Shown here: piece after piece, positions 10,887 through 34,346 of the stretch | Numbering within the stretch: position 1 is the stretch's first letter | Layout of the letters: every line of letters begins with the position of its first letter | Assembly: GCA_014730185.1 (NCBI GenBank) | Contig: WJIP01000288.1 | Span: forward strand, 1 to 34,346 | DNA: 34,346 nt | Direction: 5' to 3' | From: Caldithrix sp. | GTDB lineage: Bacteria > Calditrichota > Calditrichia > Calditrichales > Calditrichaceae | The notes under the pieces: generated by a model | The model's input: only the letters and a program-made list of their open reading frames with translations | Told to the model about the DNA's origin: nothing | Databases searched by the model: none | Translations under genes and position numbers: made by a program

Positions 10887-10907
10887 ACTGTAAATTAAAT
10901 TTACAGT
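10887..10907. promoter_or_regulatory. 21-bp perfect palindrome in the divergent promoter region
   Basis: Arms ACTGTAAATT and AATTTACAGT surround one central A, with no mismatch. The site lies 14 bases before the ATG of the sensor kinase gene and about 125 bases from the start of the divergent TonB receptor gene. Such symmetry suits a dimeric repressor or activator, and the position so close to the start would fit repression or autoregulation of the kinase operon. A cruciform or mRNA hairpin masking the ribosome site (TTGGAG just after the palindrome) is another possibility. Confidence 0.5.
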
Positions 10908-10921
10908 ATTGGAGCTCCATC

Positions 10922-13900
10922 ATGAAAAAACTGTGTTTGATTACGCTTCTAACCTTTCAAATGGCATTGAGCCAAAGTATTCCCTCTGATTCTTCCTTTT
11001 CTATGCTCTCAGCCAATTTAATTGCAGGCCTCATCCCGGATATCGAAGACGGTTACGGAGTTGCCTTTAAAGATTTTAATAATGATGGATATGCAGATAT
11101 TTATTTGGTCTGTTTCCGACATCTGAACCGACTACTGGTTAATAACGGAGGCATCATACCCTTTGTTGACCGTACCATACAATCCGGGCTGGGCGGTTAC
11201 TTAATGCCAAGGGGCCAAAGTAACCTTGAACTGGGTGCTTCTGCGGCAGATTATGATAATGATGGTCTTTGTGATATTTTTCTGGCGGGATGGGGAAAAA
11301 CCCACAAACTTTTTCATAATAACGGCCAGCTCTTTTTCGAAGACCGTACCGACAGGTTATCTTTATATGGCGGCGTTAACGCCAATACAGGTCTTTGGTT
11401 CGATGCCAATAATGATGGGTTTCTCGATTTATACGTCACCGATGAACACCGATCGAATCGACTACTGATCAATAACCGCAAAGGAGGGTTTGACGAACAA
11501 CCGTGGTTTATAAGCATGCGGGATACGGTAAACAGCCAGGGCGGTTGTGTATCCGACTTTGATCAGGACGGTGATAACGATTTGTATATCGCCAACTGGC
11601 TGGCGCCTGATTATTTACTTATTAATAACGGAAGAGGCCAGTTTGAAACCGCAAAGTTATCTGTACCAACTTTGCTTGAAAAAACCTCATCCAACAGTGC
11701 CACCAGCGGAGATATTGATAATGACGGTGATACAGATTTACTGATTGCCTCCCGTGATGGAAAAATTTATCTGTACTATAATCAATTAAAGCAGGGCGGC
11801 TTTGGTTTTACAGCGGACTCCACCCATGCATTCTATGAAACCGGTCAGAATAGCTATGGTATCCTGCTTCAGGATTTCAACCACGATGGATGGCTGGATT
11901 GTTTCATTACTGCCAGGGGGATCAATCGGCTCTACCTAAATGACGGTAAAGGCAGCTTTAATTCGGATTATGATACCAACAACCAAAGGGCTTATAGTAC
12001 AGGAGCCGCTACAGCTGATTTTGATGTTGATGGTGATTTGGATCTTTTTGTTGCCAATAAAAATGCGGTCAGCCAGATTTATCTGAATCCTACGAACCGC
12101 GACGATTATATCAAATTAAAACTATTGGGTATTTCTTCCAATCGTGAGGCGTTCGGCAGTAAAGTCTTTTTCTATCATGTACATGATTCATCACGCAGAC
12201 TACTGGGTATACGTGAACTTCAGGCTCAATCCGGCTATTTATCCTCATCTCAGCCCATTGTTCATTTCGGAACATCAACCTATGAACAACTTGAAGCTCG
12301 CATTATTTTCCCGTCGGGAAAGACCGTCTATCAGAAAGAATTGACACCCGGTCAAACATATCTTATACAGGAATACGCAACTTTATCCGGTTTTTTCCTG
12401 AAGCTTTACCATCGCATCATCTTTCATATGCAAAGGCCGAATGTTTGGCTGACGATTGGTCTGCTAATACTGTATCTGACATTTATTGTTTTATATTTCA
12501 ATTGGGGAAGTATCCGTTACCGATGGTCGAATTCCGTAATCCTTTTACAGGTATCCATTTTGATACTGATGACACTTTCCATATTGATCGTTTTGCGCGA
12601 TGCATCATTATTATCCAATCTGAAAATTCTGAATGCAGGTTTAATCGCAGTCATATTGCTTGGTATCGTTTATTCCGAATTTGTAAATTCAGTTCGTAAA
12701 AAACGAATATATTTCCGGAAAAGCCTGCAAGCGGTTAGCGATAGTATGATCAATATCCATGACAACGATAAAATTATTAACTCTCTGATAAATAATTTAT
12801 TATTGCACGAGCACATTCAATACGGTGCCTTTTATACATACCAAACAAACTCTCTGAGCATTGCCGAACGACAGCCAGCGGATAAGTTCTCTGTAGATTC
12901 ACCGCCCATCAACCAGGCAACACTCGATCACCTGTTGGGACAGATACTTTTTATAAAAAACCGCGATAACCAATTAAATCCTGTATTTGAGCAGATTAAT
13001 GCCAACGTTATGTTAAGCGTCAAACACGAAAAACAATTATATGGTATCATTGTATTACAAATGAAAGACCCTCAATCATCCATCAATAATGAAGATTTAC
13101 AGTATGTTCAGACTGTTGCAAATCAAATGGCTATTGCCATTGAAAACAATAATTATATCGAACACAGCGCTGTGATGGCCAAAAAACTGGCAGAAGCCGA
13201 AACCCGAGAAAAATATCTCCGGGAACTTGAACAAAAAAATAAAGCTTTGGACGAGAAAAATATCGCCCTCACCAGGCTTTACAAAGAATTGCAGGATAAA
13301 GAATCACAACTCATCCACTCCGAAAAAATGGCTTCTCTGGGTCAATTAGTTGCCGGCATTTCCCACGAGCTGAATAACCCCATTAGTTTTATTTATGCCA
13401 ATTCCAAAACATTGAAGGATTATATTAATCAGCTCAGAGGGTGGATTGAAAGGAATCCAAAAACACTCGACAGACAGGCCGGCAAGGAATGGGATAATAT
13501 TCTATCTGATATTCATTCAATTATTGAGGATAATATTTCCGGTAGTATGGCCATCAAGGAAATTATTTTGAATTTGAAAAGTTTTTCGCGTATAGATCAA
13601 GCTCATTGGAAAAAGACTTATATTAGCGATGCCGTGGACACATGCTTAAAAATCCTTGCACCGCAAATTACCGATTCGGTTAGTATTAAAAAAATTTTAA
13701 ATGATGATCCACCAATTTATTGTAACCCGGGACAATTGAATCAGGTTTTGGTTAATATTATTTCCAATGCTGTCGAAGCTTTGCAGGGCCAGGGGCAAAT
13801 TATTATTCGTACGACCGAAAAGAATAACTATTTGTGTGTGGATATTGAGGACGATGGAATCGGCATCGATGACACCCATATTAACAATATTTTTGATCCC

Positions 13901-14068
13901 TTTTTCACCACTAAAGATGTTAATAAAGGCACAGGGCTGGGTCTGAGTATATCTTATTCCATAATCAAAAAACACCACGGCCATATCCGCGTAAAAAGCA
14001 ACAAAAACAAAGGCACCGTATTTACTATTGAACTGCCTTTAAACCAACAGCAGGATACCAATGGATAA
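10922..14068 (+). CDS. FG-GAP propeller / ASPIC-UnbV / GAF sensor histidine kinase
   Basis: A 1048-residue one-piece sensor. After a signal peptide (about residues 1-18) come seven FG-GAP/VCBS-type repeats with calcium-loop motifs such as DFNNDGYAD and DIDNDGDTD. They begin near residues 51, 110, 161, 212, 264, 318 and 366, consistent with a seven-bladed beta-propeller outside the membrane. An ASPIC/UnbV-like domain follows (about 400-485). Three or so membrane segments lie between 505 and 600. A GAF-like domain (about 620-745), a coiled coil (about 755-805), and a HisKA region with H815 in GISHELNNP come next. The ATPase domain has NIISNAVEAL, DDGIGI and GTGLGL. It should phosphorylate the NtrC-type regulator whose gene overlaps its last eight bases. 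Whether it senses glycans, Ca2+ or protein partners is unknown. Confidence 0.92.
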   Translation: MKKLCLITLLTFQMALSQSIPSDSSFSMLSANLIAGLIPDIEDGYGVAFKDFNNDGYADIYLVCFRHLNRLLVNNGGIIPFVDRTIQSGLGGYLMPRGQSNLELGASAADYDNDGLCDIFLAGWGKTHKLFHNNGQLFFEDRTDRLSLYGGVNANTGLWFDANNDGFLDLYVTDEHRSNRLLINNRKGGFDEQPWFISMRDTVNSQGGCVSDFDQDGDNDLYIANWLAPDYLLINNGRGQFETAKLSVPTLLEKTSSNSATSGDIDNDGDTDLLIASRDGKIYLYYNQLKQGGFGFTADSTHAFYETGQNSYGILLQDFNHDGWLDCFITARGINRLYLNDGKGSFNSDYDTNNQRAYSTGAATADFDVDGDLDLFVANKNAVSQIYLNPTNRDDYIKLKLLGISSNREAFGSKVFFYHVHDSSRRLLGIRELQAQSGYLSSSQPIVHFGTSTYEQLEARIIFPSGKTVYQKELTPGQTYLIQEYATLSGFFLKLYHRIIFHMQRPNVWLTIGLLILYLTFIVLYFNWGSIRYRWSNSVILLQVSILILMTLSILIVLRDASLLSNLKILNAGLIAVILLGIVYSEFVNSVRKKRIYFRKSLQAVSDSMINIHDNDKIINSLINNLLLHEHIQYGAFYTYQTNSLSIAERQPADKFSVDSPPINQATLDHLLGQILFIKNRDNQLNPVFEQINANVMLSVKHEKQLYGIIVLQMKDPQSSINNEDLQYVQTVANQMAIAIENNNYIEHSAVMAKKLAEAETREKYLRELEQKNKALDEKNIALTRLYKELQDKESQLIHSEKMASLGQLVAGISHELNNPISFIYANSKTLKDYINQLRGWIERNPKTLDRQAGKEWDNILSDIHSIIEDNISGSMAIKEIILNLKSFSRIDQAHWKKTYISDAVDTCLKILAPQITDSVSIKKILNDDPPIYCNPGQLNQVLVNIISNAVEALQGQGQIIIRTTEKNNYLCVDIEDDGIGIDDTHINNIFDPFFTTKDVNKGTGLGLSISYSIIKKHHGHIRVKSNKNKGTVFTIELPLNQQQDTNG

Positions 14069-15509
14069 GCAAGAAAGTCTATTAGCCGTTGATGATCAGA
14101 CGCAAATTCTGAACACATTAAGCCGGATGTTCAAAACCCGGTATCAAGTATTTACGGCATCATCCGGTGAGAAAGGTCTGCAGATATTAAAAGAGCATAA
14201 TATTGCTGTTATAATCAGCGACCAACGCATGCCTGAAATGGATGGTGTAACATTTTTAAGTAAAGCCATGGAAATACAACCGAAAGCCATCCGTTTATTA
14301 ATTACAGGTTACAGCGATATCGACGCAACCATTGAGGCGGTAAACCAGGCTAAAATATTTCAATATATTGCCAAACCCTTTGAACCCGATGAGTTGATAC
14401 AAATTATTGATACCGCAATACACCACTATCGCTTGCAAAGAGAGAACGAAACTTTACAAGCACGGCTACAGGAAGCTAACCGTAAATTGAACCGGGAAAA
14501 AAATGAACTGCAAAAGCAAGTCGAACAAGAATTGAAGTTGGATAATTTGATTGGCCACAGTGCTGAAATGCTGCGTATTTTTAAAATGATCAAAAAGGTG
14601 GTCAAAACACCCACTACTGTTCTCTTACTCGGAGAAACCGGTACGGGCAAAGAGCTGTTAGCCAGAGCCATCCATTATAACAGCAATCGAAAAAACAATA
14701 TATTTGTTGTACAAAATTGTGCGGCCGTTCCAGACACCTTGCTGCAAAGTGAATTATTCGGGCACGTTAAAGGGGCCTTTACCGGGGCTGTTACCGATAA
14801 GAAAGGTGTTTTTGAGCATGCCCATAAGGGAACTATTTTTTTGGATGAAATCGGTGATACTTCATCCTCATTTCAACTTGGCCTGCTGCGTGTATTGCAG
14901 GAAGGTAGCATTAAACCTCTGGGATCTCTATCCGAAAAAGTAGTGGATGTACGGGTAATAGCGGCGACCAACCAAAACCTGGAAAAAGCGGTCACGGAGG
15001 GACGCTTTCGGGAAGATCTGTATTATCGCCTGAGTGTCTTTCCCATCCATATCCCTCCATTGCGAGAACGCCGTGAAGATATACCGGATTTAGTGGAATT
15101 TTTCCTTAAGAAATATGCTACCCGAATCGGCAAATCGGTTAAAGGTGTTGATGACCAAACCATACAAGTATTGATGGAATATCCATTTCCCGGTAATATT
15201 CGTGAACTTGAAAATGAGATGGAAAGGGCCGTAACATTAGCAGAAGAAAATCAATTGATCACTTCAGATTTATTGTCATCCCGCTTTAAAAATCGCATAA
15301 CAGAAGTTCCCTTTGAACCGGTACGTCCATCATCATTCAATCTTAAAGAAGCGGTATCCGAATTGGAAGAAAAATTAATTAAAGATGCCCTGGATAAAAC
15401 CGGAGGTAATATTTTACGGGCGGCAGCGAGACTGGGAATCAGCCGGGTGGGTTTGCATAAAATGATAAAACGTCATAATATTAACGTCACTGTTTTTAAA
15501 CATAGATGA
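14061..15509 (+). CDS. NtrC-family sigma-54 activating response regulator
   Basis: A 482-residue regulator with three domains. The receiver (about 1-125) has D11/D12 and phospho-acceptor D54 in SDQRMPEMDG. A coiled linker (about 130-160) follows. The AAA+ domain has Walker A GETGTGKE (191-198), the sigma-54 contact loop GAFTGA (238-243), and Walker B TIFLDEIGD. The C-terminal Fis-type helix-turn-helix is GGNILRAAARLGISRVGLHK. GAFTGA shows it can open sigma-54 promoters when phosphorylated. The gene overlaps the sensor kinase gene by eight bases, so they form one signalling pair. A fair sigma-54 promoter lies about 600 bases downstream, ahead of the Tyr-rich lipoprotein gene, and is a natural target candidate. 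Confidence 0.96.
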   Translation: MDKQESLLAVDDQTQILNTLSRMFKTRYQVFTASSGEKGLQILKEHNIAVIISDQRMPEMDGVTFLSKAMEIQPKAIRLLITGYSDIDATIEAVNQAKIFQYIAKPFEPDELIQIIDTAIHHYRLQRENETLQARLQEANRKLNREKNELQKQVEQELKLDNLIGHSAEMLRIFKMIKKVVKTPTTVLLLGETGTGKELLARAIHYNSNRKNNIFVVQNCAAVPDTLLQSELFGHVKGAFTGAVTDKKGVFEHAHKGTIFLDEIGDTSSSFQLGLLRVLQEGSIKPLGSLSEKVVDVRVIAATNQNLEKAVTEGRFREDLYYRLSVFPIHIPPLRERREDIPDLVEFFLKKYATRIGKSVKGVDDQTIQVLMEYPFPGNIRELENEMERAVTLAEENQLITSDLLSSRFKNRITEVPFEPVRPSSFNLKEAVSELEEKLIKDALDKTGGNILRAAARLGISRVGLHKMIKRHNINVTVFKHR

Positions 15510-15522
15510 AGCTTTAAAAAAT

Positions 15523-15993
15523 ATGATTAAGATTGTTATTCCCGGTTATCGAAAAATGGAATTGTCCTCTTTGGTTCTGGATTATAACGGTACCCTGGCT
15601 GTGGACGGCAAACTTGTATCTGCGGTTAAAGAAAAATTACCGGATTTGGCCAGGCACCTTAAGATTCATGTCATTACCGCAGATACCTTTGGCGCGGTGA
15701 AATACGAAATGGGTGAACTTCCCTGTGAAATTGTCGTTATTAAAGGAGACAAACAAGCAGAGCAAAAGTTAAATTATATTAAAAACCTGAACGCGGAGAA
15801 AGTAGTAGCCATTGGTAATGGCAGGAACGATCATCTGATGTTGCAATATGCCGGTTTAGGGATTGCAACCATTCAAACCGAAGGAAGTGCTGCTTTGACT
15901 CTGCAATCTGCCGATATTGTGGTGACAGATATTGGACATGCGCTGGATTTATTGAATCAGCCAAATCGAATAAAAGCCACCTTACGACAATGA
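15523..15993 (+). CDS. HAD-superfamily soluble P-type ATPase-like phosphatase
   Basis: A 156-residue HAD protein. Motif I is DYNGTLAVDG with nucleophile D20. The second Asp of the usual DxD is replaced by Asn, as in the small proteins related to P-type ATPase phosphorylation domains (COG4087-like). Motif II is a Thr in VITAD, motif III is the Lys near IVVIKGDKQAEQK, and motif IV is AIGNGRNDHLML. It is probably a small-molecule phosphatase or nucleotide-binding regulator in the cytoplasm; the substrate is not evident. It begins 13 bases after the sigma-54 activator gene, so it is likely in the same operon. An alternative start is the ATG at residue 12. Confidence 0.85.
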   Translation: MIKIVIPGYRKMELSSLVLDYNGTLAVDGKLVSAVKEKLPDLARHLKIHVITADTFGAVKYEMGELPCEIVVIKGDKQAEQKLNYIKNLNAEKVVAIGNGRNDHLMLQYAGLGIATIQTEGSAALTLQSADIVVTDIGHALDLLNQPNRIKATLRQ

Positions 15994-16120
15994 TGATATG
16001 TTCACAAAATAAACATTACTGTTAACATGTTTTACATTTGTCGAGCAGACGGAAAAAGGATCAAAATTGAAAACACCTTTATTGGGCGTATTTACCGGGC
16101 TTTTTTATATAGCTATGCTT

Positions 16121-16136
16121 TGGCACAATTATTGAA
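16121..16136 (+). promoter_or_regulatory. Candidate sigma-54 (-24/-12) promoter
   Basis: TGGCACA, four bases, then TTGA matches the sigma-54 consensus TGGCACG-N4-TTGC with correct spacing and two mismatches (A for G at the end of the -24 block, A for C in the -12 block). Transcription would start near 16146, leaving about 30 bases of leader before the ATG at 16176. About 100 bases upstream, a TGTTAACA palindrome (16020-16027) lies where an enhancer-bound activator normally sits. The only sigma-54 activator in the window is the regulator encoded at 14061. Confidence 0.5.
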
Positions 16137-16175
16137 GAATTATATATAGATAATTTAGTTAGGAGTGGTTTTATT

Positions 16176-17198
16176 ATGCGTTATTTAAAAAGTTTAACTT
16201 TAAGCATATTAACGGCATTCATTTTTACTGCATGTTATACACAGTTTGCCGTTGTTGAGCGTCATCATACCGACACCAGCGATGATTATTATTATCAAGA
16301 AGGAAATGATACGCTTTATTATTATGAAGAGGATCCTTATCCATATTCCACTCATCATCATTATTATTATGACCGGCCTTTTGACTTCGGTTTTAATTTT
16401 GGTTATTACGACCCGGCGTTTGCCTGGAACTATTTCGGAGCATCTTATTACTGGCACACACCTTATCCCTACTGGGGGAATCCTTATTGGTATCGGCCCG
16501 GCTACATCGGCTGGCATCCCTATTATCCCGACTGGTATTGGTATGACTATTGGTACGGCAATCCCGTTTATTATTCGCAAAAAACGTTTAAAAAACGTCC
16601 TTTTGGCAAAGATGGCACGGCGTTGCGTAGCAATGGGAGCAGACGCGTTACGTTGAGTGGATCTTCTCCGGGAGCGGTTCGAACCAACCGCCCGACACAG
16701 GGTAGTTCAAGAATAAGTGAATATCCTTCGACGTCTTCACGGCGCAGCACGTTCAGAAGTGGCTCGGATAACAGTTTTAGCAGTGACCGCAAGGCAGTGC
16801 GTGTTAGTGGTTCATCTACAACGGTACGTAATAAAACCGGTGAGAGTAGAAATGATCAGGCTGTCAAAAGTACTGATCGTCGATCTAAACGCACGTATTA
16901 TCCTATTACGCGGTCTGCAAAGACATCCAAACCGAAACCGGTCAAAATTATTCGTAAAAATCGCTCATCCGGTTCATCCACAAGTTCCGGCTCAACGAAT
17001 AAATCCTATCGTACCAAAAGCCGTTCCAGTTCCAGCAGCTCTTCTTATACACCGCGCAGAAGCTCGAGCTCCAGTCGATCCAGTTACTCTGCCCCCAGTC
17101 GCAGTAGTAGTTCATCATCGCGTAGCCAGAGCAGTAGCCGCTCCTCAAGCTCCAGCAGCCGGTCTTCCAGTTCGAATCGGAGTTCCAGCCGGAAATAA
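16176..17198 (+). CDS. Tyr/Trp-rich and Ser/Arg-rich low-complexity lipoprotein
   Basis: A 340-residue exported protein of unusual composition; no family recognised. The N-terminus is a lipoprotein-like signal ending FIFTAC (C20), although Phe at -3 is less common in a lipobox. Residues about 36-135 are extremely rich in Tyr, Trp, Pro and His (runs such as YYYQEGND, HHHYYYD and DWYWYDYWYG). The rest is basic and Ser-rich, ending in long Ser/Arg stretches resembling an SR tail. This suggests a disordered, possibly cross-linkable or surface-coating protein anchored to the outer membrane; that is inference. GTTAGGAG serves as ribosome site. It is followed 25 bases later by a FadL-type porin gene and preceded by a sigma-54-like promoter. 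Confidence 0.8.
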   Translation: MRYLKSLTLSILTAFIFTACYTQFAVVERHHTDTSDDYYYQEGNDTLYYYEEDPYPYSTHHHYYYDRPFDFGFNFGYYDPAFAWNYFGASYYWHTPYPYWGNPYWYRPGYIGWHPYYPDWYWYDYWYGNPVYYSQKTFKKRPFGKDGTALRSNGSRRVTLSGSSPGAVRTNRPTQGSSRISEYPSTSSRRSTFRSGSDNSFSSDRKAVRVSGSSTTVRNKTGESRNDQAVKSTDRRSKRTYYPITRSAKTSKPKPVKIIRKNRSSGSSTSSGSTNKSYRTKSRSSSSSSSYTPRRSSSSSRSSYSAPSRSSSSSSRSQSSSRSSSSSSRSSSSNRSSSRK

Positions 17199-17223: not shown

Positions 17224-18648
17224 ATGAAACGATTACTGTTAACATTGTTTACGATTTTTACTACGCTCACAGGTCTGTCTGCACAGAGTGCGGAAGAAGC
17301 CATTGACTTAATTTACGATACCCAGGGATTCGGAATCCGGGCACAAAGCATGGGTAATGCGTTTACCGCAGTAGCCGATGATTATTCAGCCATATACTGG
17401 AATCCTGCAGGTCTTGCCCAAATCCGGCATGGTGAAATATACGGCAGTCTATATAATTACAACTTTCAAACCGAGGCTACCTATCAGGGCAATACCATAA
17501 CCGAAAATCAGGCATTTACCAAACTCGGTAGCTTTGGACTGGTTGTACCCTTTCCGGTAGCCCGTGGCAGTTTTGTTATTTCTCTTGGATATCAACGCAT
17601 AAAAGATTTGGGTTCATATCTTGAATTTCAGGGGGTGAATCCCGGCAGCAACAATCTGGCTTTTGATATTTCCAATGATTTTGGGAGTTACGGAGTCCTG
17701 CCTTTTGACAGCCTGTTACAGGAAAGACAAACGAAATCCAATGATGGGGCATTAAGTCAGTTTTCATTCGGGGGAGCCATTGATCTTTCACCCCGATTTT
17801 CTGCAGGATTAACCTTAAATATTTATGGCGGCGATAATACATATACCAGCGATTATGCTCAGGATGATATCAACAACACTAACAATTACATTTTTAATGA
17901 TATCAATGATGAATTCTATTATAACTATTACGATGTGCATCAAAAATTGACGACGAATTACTCCGGGTGGGAAGCAAAAGTAGGTGGTCTTTTCCGGTTA
18001 ACCAACCAATTACGCCTTGGCGGAACCATTACCCTGCCTATGACACTGACCGTGGAAGAAGAATGGTCGGTTGATGATGAACTTTCTTATGATATTGTTC
18101 GAGAGGACGGAGTTTATAATTTTGTGGAGACCGCAGATTTAGGCTCTGGAACGTTCGACTACGAGATTAAAGTGCCTTTCAAGTTCAGTGCCGGCATCGC
18201 TTATCAAACACCGCGGTTTTTAATCAGCGCTGCCGCAGACTACCGGGACTGGACTCAGATGAAATATGATATGCCGGATAACCGTGATCAGAGAGATTAT
18301 GCCGACCTTTTAAATGAAAACAATAGTTTCAGAGAATATTTTCAACCCTCCCTGGCTTATGGCGTGGGAGGTGAGATATCACTGATGCAATCGCAATTAA
18401 AGTTGCGCGGTGGTTATCGTGTTCAGCCAACGCCTTTAAAAAATGTGGACAGTAAATATGATCGGCAGTATCTCTCTGCCGGTATCGGCTTCCTCGTGGA
18501 TAAACAAAGTATGGTGGAAGTTAGTTATGTCACCGGCCTTTGGGAGAATGACCGGTTTCATTATTACGACTGGAATGGACCTCTTATGGAGACATCTGAA
18601 AAATATACAACCAGCAAAATTACCTTCGGGATGCGCATCAAATTTTGA
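17224..18648 (+). CDS. OmpP1/FadL/TodX-family outer-membrane protein
   Basis: A 474-residue barrel protein with signal peptide MKRLLLTLFTIFTTLTGLSA. The diagnostic N-terminal region is GIRAQSMGNAFTAVADDYSA followed by IYWNPAGLAQ, typical of FadL/OmpP1 and the related PorV/UPF0164 proteins. Alternating hydrophobic strands continue to a terminal KITFGMRIKF, the C-terminal Phe signature for barrel assembly. FadL-type proteins move hydrophobic compounds across the outer membrane, while PorV-like members act in type IX secretion; the sequence alone does not settle which. It shares an operon with the low-complexity lipoprotein and ends just before a strong hairpin terminator. Confidence 0.88.
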   Translation: MKRLLLTLFTIFTTLTGLSAQSAEEAIDLIYDTQGFGIRAQSMGNAFTAVADDYSAIYWNPAGLAQIRHGEIYGSLYNYNFQTEATYQGNTITENQAFTKLGSFGLVVPFPVARGSFVISLGYQRIKDLGSYLEFQGVNPGSNNLAFDISNDFGSYGVLPFDSLLQERQTKSNDGALSQFSFGGAIDLSPRFSAGLTLNIYGGDNTYTSDYAQDDINNTNNYIFNDINDEFYYNYYDVHQKLTTNYSGWEAKVGGLFRLTNQLRLGGTITLPMTLTVEEEWSVDDELSYDIVREDGVYNFVETADLGSGTFDYEIKVPFKFSAGIAYQTPRFLISAAADYRDWTQMKYDMPDNRDQRDYADLLNENNSFREYFQPSLAYGVGGEISLMQSQLKLRGGYRVQPTPLKNVDSKYDRQYLSAGIGFLVDKQSMVEVSYVTGLWENDRFHYYDWNGPLMETSEKYTTSKITFGMRIKF

Positions 18649-31420: not shown

Positions 31421-32095
31421 ATGATAACTTCACCATTCCTCCTAATTTACATTGGTTTGAGCGGAATTCTTCTGGTTATTTTTTATCTAATCTACATGGT
31501 ATTTTTAAGAAAACATAAGCCATCAAAAAGAAATCGGGCTATTGTATTAAAAACAATTACCGGACGTTTGATAACTTTATTATTTATAGTGCTTTTGTGT
31601 ATTGCCCTGATTTTTATTGGCGCCTTTTTACATGGATATAATGTATTTACAACTCTGCAACCGGTTGCAGAAATCTCGGTACAGCCTTATAACGATAATG
31701 ATCAGTTAGCCTGGATAACGGTTGAATATATCGATCATCCGGGAAATAAAATAAAGGACAATTATCTGATTCGCGGCGATCAATGGATGGTGGAAGGTGA
31801 TATCCTCAAATGGGATAATTGGTTACATCTGGTCGGCCTTAAAACCCAATACAGGTTAACACGTATTCGTGGCCGATACCTGCGATCCGAAGACGAAATC
31901 GAGAAGAAACCTTCGATTTATAAACTGGATGAACGCGAGGACCACCCTTTCTGGAGTTTTTTATATCACTATGGAACGCAGATACCGTTTGTCCATGCCG
32001 TTTACGGCAATGCGGCCTATCAGACCACCGATAGGCATCGTGTTTTTTTACTGAAAGTCAGCATCCATGGATTTATCATTGAAGAAATTACTTAA
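31421..32095 (+). CDS. Small two-helix membrane protein of unknown function
   Basis: A 224-residue protein; family not firmly recognised. Hydrophobic segments lie near residues 5-28 and 49-72, separated by a basic loop (LRKHKPSKRNRAI). The remaining 150 residues form a soluble, probably periplasmic, beta-rich domain rich in aromatic and charged residues (DQWMVEGDILKWDNWLHLVG, RIRGRYLRSEDEIEKK). It resembles small hypothetical proteins sometimes annotated as multidrug-transport-related, without proof. Its last 29 bases overlap the start of the regulator-propeller gene, suggesting coupled expression. The preceding 198 bases back to the tRNA show only AT-rich sequence. Confidence 0.75.
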   Translation: MITSPFLLIYIGLSGILLVIFYLIYMVFLRKHKPSKRNRAIVLKTITGRLITLLFIVLLCIALIFIGAFLHGYNVFTTLQPVAEISVQPYNDNDQLAWITVEYIDHPGNKIKDNYLIRGDQWMVEGDILKWDNWLHLVGLKTQYRLTRIRGRYLRSEDEIEKKPSIYKLDEREDHPFWSFLYHYGTQIPFVHAVYGNAAYQTTDRHRVFLLKVSIHGFIIEEIT

Positions 32096-34346
32096 AACCT
32101 GGCCTTTGTTCCTGTTTATAACTTTGATTTGGACAGGTCAACTTCAGGGGCAATCTTTCCTTATTCATCATTATACAGAAGGTGATGGCTTAGGCAGTTC
32201 CGAGGTTTATGACATTGAGCAGGATAATCAGGGACAAATGTGGTTTGCCACACGTTCAGCAGTTTCAGTATATGATGGCTTCACCTGGACTAATTTTAAT
32301 TATTCCACTGAACTGGATTTTAGTATCATTGCCTTTCTAGAGCGCGACGATGAAGATAGGATATGGGTTTGCCCCCAATATATTGACCAGTCGTTGGCTT
32401 ATTTTCAGCAACAAGAATGGCATTATGTTGATATTGCGAACAGTCATATTAAAAACAGCAGCGAGATTATCCAATTCAAAACCTTTCGTTACAATGATTC
32501 CGTTAGCCTGGCATTCTTAACTCAGGAGTTCAAGCTATATATCTGGACGGACGGTAAATGGATCTTTCCAGCTGCTGACCCGAACCTGAAGGATGCTCAT
32601 ATTTTAGATATCGCATCGAAGGATGGATCGCTGTATTTAGCCAGTAATCGCGGTATCTTCAAATTTGGATCGAATTGGCTTGTACCTCAATTTAAGCAAT
32701 ATAACTTTAAATCAGATGTTCAAGCTATCGCTTTTGACAATCAAACCGTTTGGTTTGGCGGAAAAGACTGGCTTGGTTACTTGAAGGATGGAAAACTAAA
32801 TAGCTATACCTTTCAAGCTAAGAATAAAAAATCACGGTTGATTTGTCTTGAACCGGACGGATTCGGAAATGCTTATTATGCCAATCGGCATCTTATTTTT
32901 AGATTTGATCGTTTTCAAGAAGCAGTAAATCCGCTCACCAAGCGTAACGGCCTTTTGTCTGAGGGCGCAAATTCAATTTTCAGGGACATTGAAGGAAATA
33001 TCTGGATTGGGAATTATCGGGGAATATCTAAGCTCCCGGCCACACCCATTCATTCCTTTAATAAAAATAATGGATTGTTCGCGGATGAAGTGACTTCGAT
33101 TATACAAAGAGCCAACGATGAATTTGTATTCGGCCACGAGGGTGGAATTAGTATTTATAATGGCTCCTCAATAAAACAAATACCGTTTGAAATACGAAGT
33201 CGGGTTTTAGGATCGGCCAATCGTGTGCTGGATATGGCCCTCGATAAAAAAGGAGATATTTGGGTAGCGGTTCCTGAACTGGGCTTGGGTTTGCTGAAAC
33301 CCGACAATTCCATCCGTTTCAACCGGCAATTCAAAAATATCATTGCACTGCTTATGCTGTCCGAAGAACAATTGTTGTGTGTTATGCAGAAAAAAGCTGT
33401 GATATACGAGCTTAAAAATGACAAGATCATACATTTAAATTTAACAGATGATGTAAGTTATCGTAAAGCTTTTTGGGGACAGGATTCTTCCGTTTATTTA
33501 ACCACAGTAAATTCGGGTATTATTAAATTTAGTAATGCCCAGGTTGACCGGTTCGGTGCTGATCAACATCCACTTATAAAAAGCACTTATGCATTTTATG
33601 ACGGTGGAAGGAGTAAATATGTAGGTACCAGTTCGGGCCTGTTTATCCTTGATGGTGATTCGCTAAAAAAATGCACCAAACCGTTTTGCCTGGAACGACC
33701 GGTTTATGCGCTTTTTGAGGATTCCAGATCTAATCTTTATTTTGGAACGAATGCCGGAGTGTACATCTGGAATGGTAAAATTTTACGTGAAATAGATATA
33801 CGTCACGGGCTCGCCGGATTAGAAATCAACCGCGATGCTATTATTGAGGATGCGGAAGGTCATCTTTGGATTGGCACCAACCTTGGAGTATCCAAGCTGC
33901 ATATGAAATCATTAAGGGAACGATACTATGCTCCGCCTCGACTTGAGTTCAAGCCTTTCACCTTCAAAAAGCAACAATTTTCAATGCATAAACCTATCCA
34001 GTTACCCTATAACCTCAATGATTTAACCTTTCGTTTTCAATGCATATCCTTTTTTAACGAAAAACAAATCCGATTGAGATACAAGTTAATCGGATTCCAT
34101 GATCAATGGCGAGAAGTACCCAAAATTCTAAAAAATTCTTTGCACTTCTCCCATTTACCACCTGGAGATTATCAACTTCTGTTGCAGGCTAAAAATGTAA
34201 ACAGCCATTGGAGCAAAACCGTTTCCACTCCTCTTATTCACATTAAATCGCCGATGTGGTCGAAATGGTGGTTTATGTCGGGTTTGCTTGTTATACTTGC
34301 GATTTTAATTTACCTCATCTTTTCACTCACTGCCCGACGTAAATAC
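32067..34346 (+). CDS. Two-component regulator propeller sensor, 3' end cut by window
   Basis: The frame is open from the ATG at 32067 to the last base, giving 760 residues with no stop, so the C-terminal signalling domain lies outside. An N-terminal hydrophobic signal (about residues 9-30) is followed by regulator-propeller repeats with the pattern D..G.(I/L)W(I/F/V)(G/A)T...G(V/I)(S/Y), for example QGQMWFATRSAVSVYDG, EGNIWIGNYRGISKL and EGHLWIGTNLGVSKL. A Y_Y_Y domain follows (about 645-725, LRYKLIGFHDQW and LPPGDYQLLLQAKN), and then one membrane helix (about 731-752, FMSGLLVILAILIYLI). Proteins of this layout normally continue into a histidine kinase or a guanylate cyclase domain and sense periplasmic signals, often glycans. 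Which output it has cannot be seen. Confidence 0.9.
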   Translation, partial: MDLSLKKLLKTWPLFLFITLIWTGQLQGQSFLIHHYTEGDGLGSSEVYDIEQDNQGQMWFATRSAVSVYDGFTWTNFNYSTELDFSIIAFLERDDEDRIWVCPQYIDQSLAYFQQQEWHYVDIANSHIKNSSEIIQFKTFRYNDSVSLAFLTQEFKLYIWTDGKWIFPAADPNLKDAHILDIASKDGSLYLASNRGIFKFGSNWLVPQFKQYNFKSDVQAIAFDNQTVWFGGKDWLGYLKDGKLNSYTFQAKNKKSRLICLEPDGFGNAYYANRHLIFRFDRFQEAVNPLTKRNGLLSEGANSIFRDIEGNIWIGNYRGISKLPATPIHSFNKNNGLFADEVTSIIQRANDEFVFGHEGGISIYNGSSIKQIPFEIRSRVLGSANRVLDMALDKKGDIWVAVPELGLGLLKPDNSIRFNRQFKNIIALLMLSEEQLLCVMQKKAVIYELKNDKIIHLNLTDDVSYRKAFWGQDSSVYLTTVNSGIIKFSNAQVDRFGADQHPLIKSTYAFYDGGRSKYVGTSSGLFILDGDSLKKCTKPFCLERPVYALFEDSRSNLYFGTNAGVYIWNGKILREIDIRHGLAGLEINRDAIIEDAEGHLWIGTNLGVSKLHMKSLRERYYAPPRLEFKPFTFKKQQFSMHKPIQLPYNLNDLTFRFQCISFFNEKQIRLRYKLIGFHDQWREVPKILKNSLHFSHLPPGDYQLLLQAKNVNSHWSKTVSTPLIHIKSPMWSKWWFMSGLLVILAILIYLIFSLTARRKY

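Follow-up and report, generated by a model that had tools for sequence, protein, structure and literature searches.

The window, i.e. the whole stretch of DNA analyzed, comprises 34,346 nucleotides of contig WJIP01000288.1 from Caldithrix sp. (assembly GCA_014730185.1). It contains genes for a sensor histidine kinase, a response regulator and a small HAD-like protein, followed by genes for a lipoprotein and an outer-membrane barrel, with these features:

10889-10905, no strand assigned: inverted repeat TGTAAATTAAATTTACA before the kinase gene, 12 of 14 positions matched, its end 16 nt upstream of the kinase ATG
10922-14068, plus strand: sensor histidine kinase (Pfam, hydropathy)
14061-15509, plus strand: NtrC-type response regulator with receiver, sigma-54 AAA+ domain containing GAFTGA, and Fis-type helix-turn-helix (HTH, SRVGLHKMIKR)
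15523-15993, plus strand: small HAD-like protein (Pfam PF08282), a variable cluster member that is present or absent in relatives
15999-16015, no strand assigned: weaker upstream repeat copy TGTTCACAAAATAAACA, 11 of 14, 21 bp from the next copy
16020-16036, no strand assigned: candidate enhancer site (UAS), inverted repeat TGTTAACATGTTTTACA, 13 of 14, centre approximately 105 bp upstream of the -12 element
16121-16134, plus strand: putative sigma-54 promoter TGGCAC-N5-TTG (-24/-12), from sequence, conservation and a dyad search
16176-17198, plus strand: lipoprotein with signal peptide and invariant CYT, putative target gene 1
17224-18648, plus strand: outer-membrane barrel of the FadL superfamily (PF03349), putative target gene 2, 25 nt after gene 1
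17237-17253, no strand assigned: repeat match TGTTAACATTGTTTACG in the first codons of the barrel gene, 13 of 14

The kinase carries a signal peptide, FG-GAP repeats, UnbV/ASPIC, GAF, HisKA and HATPase domains, with hydrophobic stretches at approximately residues 506-592, and its FG-GAP/ASPIC part is probably periplasmic. By its domain set and the phased paired sites upstream of the promoter (see below), the regulator belongs to the NtrC-type bacterial enhancer-binding proteins, and its HTH is strongly conserved among orthologs. The best NCBIfam scores were obtained with AtoC (401 versus a cut-off of 714 bits), a PEP-CTERM regulator and NtrC, all far under the curated cut-offs; an assignment as NtrC proper (NR(I)) was rejected at 370 bits versus the ntrC equivalog cut-off of 558.6 bits. 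The lipoprotein is Tyr/Trp-rich and then Arg/Ser-rich, gave no match in Pfam or NCBIfam, and yielded a structure model that was not confidently folded (pLDDT 44) and was unusable. Its assignment as a lipoprotein follows from the lipobox Cys, which is invariant in all 12 aligned sequences; its own lipobox FTAC is slightly off the usual lipobox pattern. The barrel scored 32.7 bits with Pfam PF03349 (Toluene_X, cut-off 29.7 bits), placing it in the FadL/OmpP1/TodX family, and its model (pLDDT 85) matched the folds of BamG, FadL, TodX and TbuX.

In the putative promoter, TGGCAC (16121-16126) is separated by the spacer AATTA from TTG (16132-16134), with the GG-N10-G spacing preserved, and transcription is predicted from this spacing to start near 16146. 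An earlier note on this DNA had placed the -24/-12 blocks 40-55 bases before the lipoprotein gene and a GAFTGA-containing regulator about 600 bases upstream; both placements were borne out, with the blocks 55 to 42 nt 5' of the lipoprotein ATG (16176) and the end of the regulator gene 667 nt before it. The same note had named absence of rpoN as grounds for abandoning the promoter. Because rpoN was found in the genome (Sigma54_DBD, E 1.4e-59), that objection falls away. The base 3' of TTG is an A, giving a -12 element of TTGA rather than TTGC, the consensus stated in the part of PMC12316311 consulted.

Motif counts in the window were no higher than expected by chance. Allowing up to one mismatch, TGGCAC-N5-TTG was found seven times (7.66 expected), and TGTTAACA, the element upstream of the promoter that had been proposed as an enhancer site, was found twice (0.89 expected). 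Evidence from the single sequence is thus worthless here, and the window counts were dropped as support for promoter or enhancer. The only other exact promoter-motif match in the window (33872-33885) is coding sequence (IGTNLG) of an ORF. This ORF (32067-34346), which we take for a propeller sensor, runs off the window end, and its IGTNLG-type repeats generate TGGCAC-N5-TTG by coding, a warning against raw sigma-54 motif scans at this place. Genome-wide, TGGCAC-N5-TTG occurred 40 times versus 23 times for the reversed pattern, and across 15 genomes TGGCAY-N5-TTGCA occurred 92 times versus 21 times for the reversed-pattern control; this excess supports sigma-54 use in general and does not bear on 16121-16134.

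The comparison with relatives was therefore decisive: a promoter with no statistical weight in a single sequence gains near-certainty once relatives are compared. Relatives of the lipoprotein were found in 18 of 60 genomes, including 13 of 14 same-family genomes, and regulator orthologs in 34 of 40 genomes of the class. From the lipoprotein relatives, a barrel search of named genomes and the regulator orthologs, 32 regulator-associated lipoprotein loci (own locus included) spanning several families of the class were assembled. Left out were L019 (G037), which has no usable lipoprotein start, as well as L018, L171, L172, L173 and genome-contig duplicates of counted loci; G022, G031 and G038 were not counted, having no lipoprotein gene beside the regulator (contig end in G022 and G038), and the copies without an adjoining regulator (G028x, G035x) were kept separate as negatives. 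In 29 of the 32 loci, the strict motif TGGYAY-N5-TTG was present 35-61 nt upstream of the start codon of the lipoprotein ortholog, counts that are not independent because the loci are related. The second objection foreseen in the earlier note, missing conservation of the -24/-12 blocks in relatives, is thereby strongly countered. For comparison, 1.34 million strand-bases from these and adjacent loci, promoters included, contained 68 occurrences of the strict pattern, i.e. approximately 0.0025 per 50-nt window. The three loci without the strict motif in place were G025 (TGGTGC at -74), L066 (motif at -453, before another reading frame) and G027 (single mismatch), the last of which counts against the best explanation given below. 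An unsupervised count of all 3-mer pairs ranked TGG-N8-TTG at the top (30/32 loci, 1.17 expected, z 27; shuffled sets reached z of at most 8.9). Most other columns of the 31 aligned promoters carried little information, so the region is otherwise scrambled. The base after TTG was A in 12, T in 12 and C in seven of these promoters; the A found here thus occupies a tolerated position in the set.

The suspected enhancer site was correctly placed and is conserved, but only half of it had been recognized. TGTTAACA (16020-16027, 101 nt 5' of TGGCAC) forms the left half of a longer inverted repeat of 17 bp, TGTWAAC-N3-GTTWACA (16020-16036), that normally occurs in two phased copies. Within -300 to -30, a repeat matching at least 12 of 14 positions was present in 28 of the 32 loci (0.26 expected from shuffles) and a phased pair in 24 (0.005 expected from shuffles). 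In agreement, the core of the repeat, AAC-N3-GTT, was also recovered upstream by the unsupervised search (25/32, 2.07 expected). Pair spacing was measured over the 31 loci with a promoter match, of which 24 have two copies; all 24 spacings were either 21-24 bp (10 pairs) or 29-33 bp (14 pairs), with none between. These values correspond to two or three helix turns and would place the sites in helical phase. The tandem repeats lay about 60-212 bp upstream of the -12 element. No repeat with at least 11 of 14 matches was found within 500 nt in G006, G011, L066 and the G035 copy beside the regulator. Of these, G006 and G011 show the promoter without a recognisable lipoprotein-side repeat, with the kinase-side repeat retained in G006; L066 has a weak repeat pair beside its more distant promoter, and the lipoprotein-side repeat of G010 is weak and distant. 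Repeat matches at the barrel start were also present in G003, G005 and G010. The match at 17237-17253 may have arisen by chance from signal-peptide codons.

The repeat was further associated with the adjacent regulator. In families f1 and f2, all 13 testable loci carried a kinase-side repeat (at least 12 of 14) 25-65 nt upstream of the kinase start, the kinase starts of G005 and G017 being uncertain and G003 being left out with only 28 nt of upstream sequence. Outside f1 and f2, none of 13 loci had such a repeat within 75 nt, and one (G021) had it at -192. The copy at 10889-10905 is probably an autoregulatory site. In G004, G012 and G013, the lipoprotein-barrel operon is located apart from the kinase-regulator-HAD genes (in G004 at a computed distance of approximately 256 kb if the contig is circular), and the repeat was found at both places. 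G007 showed neither a lipoprotein match nor a regulator ortholog at 1e-100. G035 has two operon copies, one beside the regulator with the promoter (no repeat), the other, without an adjoining regulator, with neither motif; the lipoprotein copy of G028, also without an adjoining regulator, likewise had neither motif. In G028 a regulator ortholog (53% identity) is present, yet the lipoprotein gene lacks both motifs. The operon of G010 (L060, G010:C283) adjoins a different kinase-regulator pair (34% identity), with the usual regulator's ortholog located on a separate contig. Nearly every one of 34 regulator sequences retained the recognition-helix stretch SR-x-GL-x-K, which differed in the unrelated operon-side regulator of G010. 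The sigma-54 promoter, the enhancer site and the link to the NtrC-type regulator each find support in conservation across other genomes, including the three in which regulator and operon are unlinked but share the operator. The conserved promoter, the repeat and the link to the regulator all speak for the lipoprotein and the FadL-type barrel as probable targets of the sensor pathway, as the earlier note had suggested.

Outside the phylum, eight genomes without an ortholog were available, their best regulators being about 40-44% identical. The repeat was found in none of the eight, and a sigma-54-like site was present at five of eight lipoprotein genes (L070, L072, L074, L081, L084), six of the 14 loci examined being excluded from this count as they had no CYT lipoprotein ORF. 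In the class around L081, the lipoprotein occurred in 27 of 149 genomes. From 28 loci, six of them without a CYT lipoprotein ORF, 22 with a clear start were evaluated; a sigma-54-like site was found at 7/22 and the repeat at 0/22, counts that cover lipoprotein loci, not regulators, and in which L235 and L247 repeat L081 and L072. Because the repeat was absent from both sets (0/8, 0/22) but sigma-54-like sites were not (5/8, 7/22), sigma-54 control of the lipoprotein gene appears wider than the regulator, and the repeat regulator-specific. The non-Calditrichota lipoprotein genes that lack the repeat and have a sigma-54-like site, at 51-102 nt upstream of the start codon, are L070, L072, L074, L081, L084, L248, L249, L254, L259 and L261.

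In the own genome, the repeat with up to one mismatch occurred at three places: before the lipoprotein gene, at the barrel-gene start, and on an apparently unrelated contig. The last is a perfect repeat (C149) among genes that are phage-like by reading alone and are not envelope genes. In 15 family genomes, 81 repeat matches compared with 74 for the reversed control; the signal of the repeat is its position, not its number. By our own tally, at least 11 of the 81 lay before the lipoprotein gene, at least eight before the kinase gene and at least four at the barrel start. Forty of the matches outside the module were examined by place; of these, only one (G002:C226) had a sigma-54-like site 40-300 nt downstream. 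The regulator is thus probably nearly single-purpose. A wider regulon was considered and rejected on the 1/40 count and the inconsistent pairing in homologs: at eight loci homologous to G002:C226 in seven other genomes, repeat and sigma-54-like site were not consistently paired, although in two overlapping loci of G007 a weak pair of repeats lay close to a sigma-54-like site. At L225 (G002:C226) itself, the sigma-54-like site is at 333 on the minus strand and the repeat at 427; repeat and TGGCACAGGGTTTG precede an exported-protein gene, which in this one relative may be a second target of the regulator.

Three other explanations were weighed. The promoter region could be read as a sigma-70 promoter, with TTGGCA (16120-16125) and TATATA (16143-16148) matching the hexamers at 5/6 and 4/6 positions across an ideal 17-nt spacer. 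Among the 31 aligned promoters, however, the TATATA columns carried at most approximately 0.3 bit whereas the TTG at -12 recurred (the search pattern itself having set the motif columns), the unsupervised 3-mer count returned no -35/-10 pair in gaps of up to 15, and a sigma-70 scan did not list the TTGGCA/TATATA pair. We regard a sigma-70 promoter as very improbable.

The two remaining alternatives concern the protein that binds the repeats. With approximately 24 sigma-54 activator domains in the genome, the promoter could be real and the repeats bound by an activator other than the adjacent regulator; the G010 operon beside its unrelated regulator fits this. Other activators can evidently serve the lipoprotein gene, because sigma-54-like sites occur without the regulator in other lineages (the 5/8 lipoprotein genes outside the phylum; the 7/22 in the class around L081 come from a search of lipoprotein loci alone). 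Against this, the repeat goes with the kinase-regulator pair, before the kinase gene in all testable f1 and f2 loci, at both places when the operon is unlinked, and missing where the ortholog is missing, so we give another activator little credence. The repeats could also be operators of an unrelated repressor, the promoter being driven by an activator from elsewhere. The kinase-side distance of 25-65 nt from the start codon is a place typical of repression, and in four genomes the repeat is matched close to where the barrel gene begins. A phased pair at 60-212 bp upstream of a -12 element, however, is enhancer geometry, and the loci inspected, in a survey that covered only the five window genes, showed no further regulator gene accompanying the cluster. 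A repressor of this kind seems most unlikely.

We consider it highly probable that the locus encodes a dedicated two-component sigma-54 switch of the lipoprotein-barrel operon. From the promoter motif, the repeats with their phasing and conservation, and their co-occurrence with the regulator, we infer signal perception, phosphorylation, binding, activation, start site and autoregulation as follows. The FG-GAP/ASPIC membrane kinase would phosphorylate the NtrC-type regulator encoded next to it, which would bind the tandem TGTWAAC-N3-GTTWACA repeats as two dimers on the same DNA face and contact sigma-54 RNA polymerase via GAFTGA, so that transcription of the lipoprotein-barrel operon would start near 16146. 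In f1 and f2, the regulator would probably also limit its own operon through the repeat before the kinase gene. Points that count against this explanation are the TTGA form of the -12 element, the four loci without a repeat, the mismatch in G027, the G028 lipoprotein gene that lacks both motifs despite an ortholog, the unrelated regulator at the G010 operon, and a number of repeat matches in the family genomes hardly above the control.

This kind of switch is already known. Like ZraSR, AtoSC and NtrBC, the system combines a membrane kinase, a regulator of receiver, GAFTGA-containing AAA+ and Fis HTH domains, paired upstream sites and a -24/-12 promoter; unlike them, it has an FG-GAP/ASPIC sensor, a lipoprotein-barrel target and the operator TGTWAAC-N3-GTTWACA. 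The barrel, like BamG, belongs to the FadL superfamily, and BamG ranked first both among the sequence models and, by E-value, among the fold matches; BamG is described in the consulted part of PMC12611786 as part of the Bacteroidota BAM complex. An assignment as BamG was rejected, as the score was 55 versus the NCBIfam equivalog cut-off of 250 bits; in further contrast to BamG, FadL structures match the barrel about equally well, and its partner lipoprotein has neither a family match nor a confidently modelled fold. The barrel resembles the FadL/TodX channels for hydrophobic compounds in its Toluene_X score over the cut-off and its fold matches to FadL, TodX and TbuX, but differs from them in its 11-14% identity to those structures and in the co-operonic low-complexity lipoprotein.

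The circuit across Calditrichota appears to be undescribed. Our literature searches found no paper joining Caldithrix abyssi and sigma-54, Caldithrix and RpoN, or FG-GAP, histidine kinase and UnbV, and those for Calditrichaeota with sigma54 and Calditrichota with two-component returned only work unrelated by title. In the portion consulted of Francke et al. 2011 (PMC3162934), sigma-54 is presented as controlling the bacterial exterior, with lipoproteins among the associated functions, a theme shared by the envelope target described here; the same portion names no lipoprotein-barrel operon, and the word FadL is absent from the paper's text. The main text of the C. abyssi genome paper (PMC5317091) contains none of the terms sigma, response regulator, histidine kinase, FadL or lipoprotein, and the consulted part of the 2025 sigma-54 regulon paper (PMC12316311) does not mention Calditrich-.

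A further-reaching interpretation, speculative and in our view rather unlikely, is that of a dedicated surveillance pathway for the outer membrane, in which the FG-GAP/ASPIC sensor would monitor the envelope and induce a BamG-like barrel with a disordered lipoprotein partner that helps to build or protect the outer membrane; sigma-54 control of the pair would then be an old trait of Calditrichota and parts of the Ignavibacteria-type lineage, each with its own activator. For a phylum known almost entirely from metagenomes, the dedicated switch proposed above would supply a concrete and testable circuit of sensor, regulator, operator, promoter and target; as its operator is apparently devoted nearly exclusively to this module, the circuit could be tested in a cultured relative. 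It would also tie an FG-GAP/ASPIC sensor kinase to outer-membrane function.
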